Source: Paracyclopina nana
Taxonomy: Eukaryota > Arthropoda > Copepoda > Cyclopoida > Cyclopettidae
Assembly: GCA_019096065.1 (NCBI GenBank)
Contig: JAGUCH010000003.1
Span: forward strand, 1,054,001-1,118,000
Direction: 5' to 3'
DNA: 64,000 bases
Part shown: positions 31,246 to 46,519 of the stretch, in pieces
Position numbering within the stretch: position 1 is the stretch's first letter
Layout: every line of letters begins with the position of its first letter
Notes under the pieces: generated by a model
Database searches by the model: none
What the model saw: the letters and a program-made list of their open reading frames with translations, nothing else
What the model was told of the DNA's origin: nothing
Program-made: the position numbers and the translations under genes

Positions 31246-32297
31246 CTATAGCTGGCTCAGCACTTCAGCTCCATATTCAGTTATGAGCACAGTGTGCTCA
31301 AATTGAGCAGTGCGCGTGTTGTCAGCAGTGATCACTGTGGAGTTGTCTTGCAGAATTTTGATGTGAGCAGAGCCTTCTGTCACGCAAGGGCATACCGATA
31401 ATACCATGCCTGGATTGATGAATTATTATTGTCACCAGATAATGAACACATTGAATAGTTGAGTAGTAGCTTACCTGGAACCATTGTGCCAGGATAGTTG
31501 TTCATAATGTGATACACGTCAGGGCTTGAGTGCAGGTATTTGCCTATGCCATGTCCGGTTAGAGCTGGAATGACTTTGATGTAGCGTTTTCGGGCAAACT
31601 TGCCAATGCCAGCGCCGATGTCAATCAGCATTGCACCAGGACGGCAAGCAGATATGCCTCGAAACAAGCATTCCTCGGCAACTGAACGCAAGTACCTTGC
31701 AACAGGATCAGAGGTAGCTCTATCCACTAGAATCGTTGACCCACAAACTCCGTGGAATCCGTCTTTAAAGACCGTCACATCTAACGACACCATATCACCA
31801 GCCTCGAGAGGCCTGTCATCGGGAATACCGTGGCAAGCTACGTTATTGACACTCGTACTCACAGCTTTGGGGAAGTTTCGGAAACCTAGCACGGAAGGAT
31901 AGCCGCCATGGGAAACGATCTCTTGGAACAAAATGTCATTCAGCTTATTAGTTGTGCTGCCAGGCCTTAAAATGTCCGGTGCGATGCGAACGCAGTGAGC
32001 AGCAATTTCAGCCGCCTTTCGAATCTTTTCCACTTCTTTGCTACTGTAGGTAATCACCTCATTTGGGGGATTTTCAGCGACGCCTTTGACGTAGGAGGGC
32101 ATAACACTTTGGTCCAACCCTTCGATCAATTTGGTCATCGAAGGGTCCAATTCTGACACCAATACTGGATCGATGACTGAATAAGACGGCCTTTCGAGGC
32201 CGAAATCAGCGATGTGGCGATCAAAAAATGATAGCTTCCTGCTAAGTGGTTGACCCCAGTTCCTTTGACGAAAAAAGTTCAAAAAAGCTCGCTTCAT
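31246..32297 (-). CDS. METAP1D: Mitochondrial methionine aminopeptidase 1D homologue with altered metal site
   Basis: Exons in reading order: 32297-31475 and 31409-31246; 328 residues, against about 335 in human. The basic N-terminus (MKRAFLNFFRQRNWG) fits a mitochondrial presequence. The pita-bread fold is clear: ITYSSKEVEKIRKAAEIAAHCV, NNVACHGIPDDR, SLDVTVFKDGFHG, LTGHGIGKYLH and AQFEHTVLIT. In E. coli MetAP numbering, the metal ligands D97 (LDVT), H171 (GHGIG) and E235 (QFEHT) are kept, and the active-site His79 (CHGIP) is too. The D108 position, normally in HGDTSE, reads HGVCGS. The E204 position, normally in FTIEP, reads LSVCP. The frame is intact on both sides, so this looks like a real change, not decay. 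Family members remove the initiator Met from organelle-made proteins; this one may be inactive or use a different metal arrangement. Confidence 0.9.
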
Positions 32298-32629: not shown

Positions 32630-33106
<477 letters not shown>

Positions 33107-44941: not shown

Positions 44942-46159
44942 TTACAGTTGCAGCCTTTTTTGTGACAGCTCAAAAGCCCTGCTCGTGTCATGGCAGAGCA
45001 TGAGTGCCTTAGAGAATTGTACATGGGGTGGAAAAGCTTTGGATTTGCACTTTTCAGCAAGGTATTTTTGTAGCAGATTGGCGTATTGGGCCTGCACTTT
45101 CTCGATAGTTTCCTCATCCTTCAACTCACTTCGTATGCCATCGGTGCAGTGAAGTAGTACAAGAAAGACGAGTACCAAAATATTCTTGTCACAATCATAT
45201 GGTGAATTGGATAATCCCCAAAACCACTCGCGTATTCCCTGAAAAGGCCAATTGAGTACATTCAGAAAAGTTTTACCTGAAAGCCGTACCTTCATGATTC
45301 TCCTGTGCTCTTTTTCATAATCAGAATGGGCAGCCCACGGTGAGGAAAATATGGCCTCATACGATAGGTTAGGGGTGCCTTCACTGTTAAGGGATAAAGC
45401 ATCCACATGGGACATGACGAAATCAATATCCTCTGAGTATTGGCGCTGCTGCTTCCCGAACTCCAAGAACTCCTCATAAAATTGGCTTACATCGGCCTAA
45501 AAGTAGATGCGACTTTTTAAAAGTATTACCTTGCTTTGTGATTGAGTACTTCTTACATCAATACTTATTCCCAGGTAAAAGCTCTGCAGCCTGTGGTAGT
45601 TATGCTTGGCCAAAACGAATGTATCACTGTTGCTAACTTTGCTGTCAAAAGCCAACAGAGCAAGTGAAGTATCCACTAGGATAGCTTGGTCCATTTGGTT
45701 GCAATCATTGATGTCATCTGCTGTCAAAACATATCCAGGTCTCGAAATGAAGTGAGCGAAGAAAAGTTCCATTGCATTTGCGTAAAGCTGGAAGGACTTA
45801 AGATTGCTTGTGTAGGCATATTGAGAACTCAGCTCATCAAGGTATTTGCCTTCGTCACTCGTGAAACCGACTTGCAATAACTTGTGGGTATGCTGAATGC
45901 AGTCTTTCCTCTCATTGAAGGTCTTGACGTAGCTGATCTTCATGCCCACAGCGAGGCATTTGTCGAATCGGCATTTTTTGCAACTCTTTCTGTTCTTCGA
46001 GTCAATTTTGCATCCTTCACTCGAATGTGCTGTAAAGGCTGAGTAAAGGCCACTCTGAACAGATCTCATGAAGAAGCCGCGACAACTTGTGCACACTGAA
46101 TTGGCTCCATAGTAGCTATGTTTGCTACCATTCTGGTTATTGCACACTCGACAATTCAT
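44942..46159 (-). CDS. Divergent nuclear hormone receptor, 3 exons
   Basis: Exons in reading order: 46159-45557, 45496-45290, 45238-44942; 368 residues. The DNA-binding domain starts almost at the N-terminus: CRVCNNQNGSKHSYYGANSVC, CTSCRGFFMRS, then CKIDSKNRKSC and CKKCRFDKCLAVGMK, giving all eight zinc Cys. The P-box is CTSCRG, not the usual CEGCKG or CESCKA, so DNA preference may differ. The ligand-binding region is highly divergent and no AF-2 activation helix is evident at the C-terminus (FELSQKRLQL). This resembles lineage-specific receptor expansions in some invertebrates. Intron 2 (45239-45289) is 51 bp with no stop in frame. An in-frame ATG six codons upstream (46177) could be used. 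Divergent from the coiled-coil gene, 360 bp away. Confidence 0.85.
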
Positions 46160-46519
46160 TTTTAAAAGGATCCACAATTCAAGACATCAGCTACGCAGCT
46201 GCTCAAGGTCACGGAGAACATTGTTGAATCACTTCAATCAAATGTCAGTCTCAAATTAAACACCATTTTATAGTTTCATGCCCGATTTTTTTCGCATTAT
46301 ATTCCACTCTTAGTTGTTTTAAAAAACTATAATTAACTACTGTTTTGGTTATGGAACCTTAAGGCTATAATATACTGCGCGTGCTCAATAATAAAATGTT
46401 CCGTCAAAAGTTGCGCTTAATTTGGCGGAATTTTTTCTCGCCACCCTGTTGACGCAACCTTTGTTTACATTTCAAGCTTGCTAGTTGTGACAGCGGGCTT
46501 TTCCATTGATTAGCTCAAA

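Follow-up and report, generated by a model that had tools for sequence, protein, structure and literature searches.

The METAP1D-like gene at 31246–32297 raises the question of what a methionine aminopeptidase (MetAP) becomes when two of the five residues that bind its metals are replaced. An earlier note on this DNA had read the locus as a METAP1D homologue with a clean frame and two lost ligands, and had proposed either a catalytically dead but conserved protein or a Cys-containing metal site. The window, meaning the whole stretch of DNA analysed here, comprises 64,000 nucleotides (C3:1054001-1118000) of a 92-Mb genome in 10 contigs, and positions without a contig name are window coordinates. 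The genome is probably that of an arthropod, as 80 matches to Chitin_bind_4 suggest; a search for 7tm_6, the family of the insect odorant receptors, run without a positive control, gave no match.

Two exons on the minus strand make up the gene and encode a spliced protein of 328 aa. Exon 1 (31475..32297) covers residues 1–274 and the first base of codon 275, comprising a basic N-terminus and the M24 fold up to VPG in an open frame that ends at the donor GTAAGC. It is followed by a 65-bp GT–AG intron (31410..31474), the length of which is not a multiple of three, and by exon 2 (31246..31409), which encodes residues 275–328 and the stop codon (MVLSVCPCVTEG ... AQFEHTVLITEYGAEVLSQL). The splice junction (31474/31410) is a predicted one, placed from the GT–AG ends and homology; if the gene is read unspliced, the first frame continues into an unrelated tail. 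Neither a broken frame nor broken splice sites, the marks of a pseudogene, were found in the 328 codons and the intron. The spliced protein matched Pfam PF00557 (Peptidase_M24) at 1.4e-37 with the whole domain covered, and its best match in the PDB by sequence was human mitochondrial METAP1D (8khm, 9.8e-64).

A second, intact METAP1D, which the earlier note had suggested looking for, was found elsewhere in the genome at C4:1739030-1740002 (L014; exons 1739030-1739497 and 1739556-1740002; 304 aa). Its motifs read HGDCS, FTVEP and AQAEH, and all five ligands as well as all six P1 residues are kept, so that mitochondrial Met removal need not rely on the window copy. Codon use in frame was similar for the two genes (scores of 0.051 for the window gene vs 0.057 for the paralogue), while other frames of the window gene scored −0.234 and −0.288 (two forward) and −0.109 (one reverse).

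The metal ligands of E. coli MetAP are D97, D108, H171, E204 and E235, according to PMC2238726 and PMC2807865. For human METAP1D, PMC10724148 names Asp178, Asp189, His252, Glu284 and Glu315, and proposes that Glu284 accepts and hands on the catalytic proton. The window protein has D173, V184, H249, C281 and E312 at these positions, and thus keeps three of the five. V184 (codon GTT, 31746..31748, motif HGVCGS; this and all codons below on the minus strand) replaces the ligand Asp (E. coli D108, human D189), and C281 (codon TGC, 31390..31392, motif LSVCPC) replaces the Glu that is both a ligand and the proposed catalytic base (E. coli E204, human E284). Asp and Glu, respectively, were present at these two positions in all 130 comparators, and none of the five ligands was missing in any MetAP of the comparator alignment, a set which draws in part on the best 80 of at least 589 relatives from genome_contigs. 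The retained ligands D173 (31779..31781), H249 (31551..31553) and E312 (31297..31299) correspond to E. coli D97, H171 and E235, and the active-site His pair is likewise kept as H156 and H256 (E. coli H79 and H178). The earlier description of the metal site, with two ligands lost and the other three and the active-site His intact, was therefore correct. Compared with human METAP1D (8khm, 8khn and 8kho), the window protein shares a basic N-terminus and the equivalents of D178, H252, E315, H161 and H259, and differs by D189 to V184, by E284 to C281 and in most of its P1 pocket.

The change in this pocket goes beyond the two lost ligands that had been noticed before. The P1 residues given for human METAP1D are Pro141, Tyr144, Phe147, Cys152, Phe258 and Trp301, and five of these six are changed in the window protein (Pro141 to V136, Tyr144 to F139, Cys152 to S147, Phe258 to L255 and Trp301 to S298), with F142 alone kept. 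S147 (31857..31859) stands in place of a Cys (E. coli C70) that is found in 130 of 130 comparators, and S298 (31339..31341) in place of a Trp (E. coli W221) that is found in 127 of the 130. PMC2807865 reports E. coli MetAP to be fully active with a single metal, so partial ligand loss alone is no proof of inactivity. With both the Asp and the acid/base Glu lost and the Met pocket rebuilt, ordinary Met removal by the window protein nevertheless appears unlikely. The protein still scored 212.5 bits with TIGR00500, the equivalog model of type I MetAPs (curated cut-off 171.35; paralogue 277.4). As the model passes it despite two missing ligands, automatic annotation may mislabel the gene at 31246–32297; this is a clear instance of a curated equivalog model that would assign MetAP activity to a copy that appears dead.

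The 130 comparators consist of 127 prokaryotic or viral-contig MetAPs, the intact paralogue, human METAP1D and the MetAP1 of 8bqd. The relatives were taken from two collections, viral_contigs (58 loci) and genome_contigs (the best 80 of at least 589), described as consisting of viral contigs and of genomes of bacteria and archaea. A matching ORF was present for 133 of these 138 loci and absent for 5; 127 were full length and were used, while six partial ones (L051, L052, L058, L067, L068 and L070) were left out. Since the relatives were found with the patterns [RL][ST]AQ.EHT and [PV]L[NG][YF].[GN]FPK, conservation is inflated at the alignment positions of E235 and Q233 and at those of the P1 residues Pro141, Tyr144 and Phe147; D108, E204, C70 and W221 lie outside both patterns. 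The phylogenetic tree had 44 rows, made up of at most 38 of the 127 comparators and six named rows.

An error in the assembly or the reads at the two motifs is a highly improbable explanation of the missing ligands. Nine active-site codons differ between the window gene and the paralogue: seven show two- or three-base differences and two a single-base difference, in a frame that is otherwise clean. The Glu to Cys change involves three bases (GAG in the paralogue, TGC in the window gene) and the Trp to Ser change two (TGG, TCC), and the single-base pairs are Asp to Val (GAT, GTT) and Tyr to Phe. A single base-calling error cannot account for a pattern in which seven of nine codons show multi-base differences, and sequencing error was rejected on this ground. 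The window copy, moreover, has one place in the assembly, on an 11.6-Mb contig.

The lost motif could also be supplied by an alternatively spliced neighbouring exon, which the earlier note had named as a finding that would overturn its reading. A six-frame scan of the 64-kb window with loose patterns found no hidden FTIEP or HGD exon in the gene or in its 65-bp intron. The scan gave eight FTIEP-like and three HGD-like matches in total, all outside the gene; the nearest minus-strand FTIEP-like matches lie about 17 kb to each side (14652 and 49292) in unrelated context, and one HGD-like match, at 32951, is in a plus-strand frame rich in Lys and Ser. With no match in a MetAP-like context in or near the gene, an alternative exon supplying FTIEP was rejected.

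Other M24 loci are present in the genome as well. A MetAP1 locus grouped with the MetAP1 of 8bqd (100/99 in the 44-row tree), and MetAP2, EBP1, Spt16, prolidase and aminopeptidase P were named from their translations alone. Two loci are aminopeptidase-P-like, XPNPEP1 by reading of the translation (C2:6899747-6900434 and C1:749898-750128). The EBP1-like locus (L016; C5:5797382-5797675, minus strand; named from its translation) has Val at the position of MetAP2 Asp262 and human EBP1 Asn120 (KIDLGAHIDGFIAVVAHT); in an ungapped by-eye comparison with the MetAP2-like locus of the genome, both the ligand concerned and its replacement are those of V184 in the window gene. Within the window itself, the only Pfam match of an ORF at 45497-46177 was a C4 zinc-finger (nuclear receptor) DNA-binding domain, and an open frame of 362 aa at 1-1089, cut by the window start, contains Cys/His zinc-knuckle-like motifs, has no Pfam match and possibly belongs to a mobile element.

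The window gene, the C4 paralogue and human METAP1D formed a clade (100/98 in the same tree) apart from MetAP1 and the bacterial MetAPs, and this clade, together with the alignments, upholds the METAP1D homology claimed earlier. Within it, the two copies of the genome were sisters (99/83), although the window row was flagged as a long branch and its placement is unsure. Its length of 1.88 made it the longest end branch of the tree, compared with 0.70 for the paralogue and 1.04 for human METAP1D. In AU tests, neither a grouping of the paralogue with human METAP1D (p 0.126) nor one of the window gene with human METAP1D (p 0.125) was rejected, and the duplication may therefore fall before or after the arthropod–vertebrate split. 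The duplication is old, as 39 of 60 fourfold sites at residues common to both copies differ; the NG86 dN between the copies is 0.62. The copies also have no intron position in common (VPG|GM, 65 bp, in the window gene; VYL|DGF, 58 bp, in the paralogue), which means that one may be retrocopy-derived, or that introns were turned over in both.

The differences between the copies are unevenly distributed over the protein. If the 17 active-site positions are set aside, 131 of 243 residues differ between the window protein and the paralogue and 129 of 243 between human METAP1D and the paralogue, while at the 17 positions themselves the numbers are nine and one, respectively. The body of the window protein has thus kept a similarity like that of METAP1D, and the special constraint on the active site has been lost. 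Among 42 columns that are at least 95% conserved in the 127 MetAPs, nine are changed in the window protein, compared with one in the paralogue, two in human METAP1D and one in the MetAP1 of 8bqd. Conserved columns that are changed in the window protein were modestly enriched in the active site with a 90% cut (7 of 14 vs 8 of 44 in the rest; Fisher p 0.025) and weakly so with the stricter 95% cut (5 of 12 vs 4 of 30; Fisher p 0.058).

Neutral evolution was simulated over a period long enough for 9 of 41 conserved sites to be lost, with 2000 runs per setting. A neutral window gene would on average have gained two to three stop codons in this period. Of the 2000 runs, the frame stayed intact in 101 without indels, in 7 at an indel rate of 0.05 per substitution and in 2 at a rate of 0.1. 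When the transition bias was stronger, 190 of 2000 runs stayed intact without indels and 2 of 2000 at the indel rate of 0.1. Taken together, the simulation and the conservation pattern favour retention over decay, and are compatible with a recent loss of function followed by slow decay.

The N-terminus of the window protein resembles a mitochondrial presequence. Its first 30 residues (32208..32297, minus strand) contain seven Arg/Lys and one acidic residue (position 26), with a maximum helical hydrophobic moment of 0.63. The corresponding values were three Arg/Lys, one acidic residue and 0.44 for the paralogue, six, none and 0.43 for the TRAP1 of the same window, and three, five and 0.19 for ZnT. 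Composition and hydrophobic moment together suggest that the window protein may be located in mitochondria.

A gene that is dispensable beside an intact paralogue may simply be dying, with catalysis lost first and frame-breaking changes yet to come. The nine changed conserved columns and the longest end branch of the tree are what such a pseudogene would show. The open frame, the GT–AG intron, the normal codon use and the near-normal similarity outside the active site speak against it, as do the neutral simulations, in which the frame was rarely, though not never, kept; on balance we regard decay as unlikely. A quite different role would be that of a regulatory partner of the intact METAP1D, either dominant-negative or as a subunit of a heteromer. 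Both copies are found in one genome and perhaps act in one compartment, but type I MetAPs act as monomers, and such a partnership seems very doubtful. A precedent for it is alpha-MPP, which stands in this relation to beta-MPP (PMC11266112).

The second option of the earlier note, a Cys-containing metal site, fared differently at the two changed positions. The Cys near each of them had been taken as a common feature. At the first, C185 (31743..31745) directly follows V184, but Cys is also present there in the paralogue (HGDC) and in 7 of the 130 comparators, so it is most simply explained as inherited, and 'V-C' was rejected as a new ligand. At the second, C281 does not lie beside the Glu but replaces it, and both C281 and C283 (31384..31386) are new. 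C283 lies at the P1' position of human I286 and E. coli M206, where none of the 130 comparators has Cys, and C155 (31833..31835) at that of human C160, where 129 of 130 do. C155, C281 and C283 thus occupy three of the five P1' positions (human Cys160, Glu284 and Ile286), and the retained ligands H249 and E312 are found in the same pocket. A thiol site could therefore have arisen in which C281 stands where the Glu ligand was and, together with C155, C283, H249 and E312, binds a single metal, zinc for instance, as a structural site or in a changed hydrolase. Compared with the paralogue, the codon pair Glu/Cys differs at three bases and the pair Leu/Cys of C283 at two. Given the Cys content of the protein itself, the chance of at least two Cys among nine changed residues is about 0.015, a figure calculated post hoc. 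This Cys excess and the placement of the three residues keep a single-metal or redox thiol site among the candidates. However, the second ligand Asp is now Val, its neighbour C185 is common to the paralogue, the proposed acid/base Glu is lost and the P1 pocket is rebuilt, and we consider such a site improbable. Slightly more doubtful is the fuller version, that the carboxylate dinuclear site was rebuilt as a Cys site of these five residues that carries one soft metal or a redox thiol pair and has a sensing or new hydrolytic role beside METAP1D.

The reading we prefer, and hold to be somewhat probable, is that the window gene, a nuclear one, encodes an M24 pseudopeptidase of mitochondria that was derived from METAP1D in parallel to EBP1. 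It agrees with the first option of the earlier note, a dead but conserved protein, which appears the better of the two: the frame is open and the active site differs from that of the paralogue at nine of 17 positions, compared with one for human METAP1D, while the rest remains METAP1D-like. As judged by its sequence, the protein combines a MetAP fold with the loss of catalytic residues, as M24 pseudopeptidases do. An old METAP1D duplicate would have kept the M24 (pita-bread) fold, presumably under selection, and the basic presequence. Its dinuclear metal site would have been lost by the change of Asp to Val, the Glu that serves as ligand and proposed acid/base by that of Glu to Cys, and its Met pocket by the changes in five of the six P1 residues, while the intact METAP1D on contig C4 could carry out the catalysis. 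The protein might then bind, without catalysis, something that enters the old pocket or touches its rim; the ends of nascent chains and a matrix partner are two examples. Such a binding role in the mitochondrial matrix is a guess by analogy with EBP1 and its presumed role on cytosolic ribosomes.

Non-catalytic use of the M24 fold is known from other proteins. The N-terminal domain of Spt16, a histone chaperone, is M24-like and inactive, though far more divergent than the window protein. EBP1 is a cytosolic protein and more closely related to MetAP2. At 31.9 bits, compared with a cut-off of 430, the EBP1 model gave no indication that the window protein descends from EBP1. According to PMC11266112, EBP1 is an M24 pseudopeptidase located at the exit of the ribosomal tunnel, which its pseudo-active site faces, and has D109, N120, H188, D227 and K320 where MAP2 has its ligands D251, D262, H331, E364 and E459. 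On these assignments, EBP1 (PA2G4) resembles the window protein in having a MetAP fold with ligands lost at the same two positions, among others, and differs in that it keeps two of the five ligands, whereas the METAP1D-derived window protein keeps three.

No prior description of a METAP1D pseudopeptidase was found in the literature searched on METAP1D, mitochondrial methionine aminopeptidase and MetAP pseudoenzymes. To our knowledge, the known M24 pseudopeptidases, EBP1 and Spt16, act in the cytosol or the nucleus. If the reading is true, a METAP1D-derived M24 pseudopeptidase with a presequence would be the first known candidate for a mitochondrial counterpart of these proteins.
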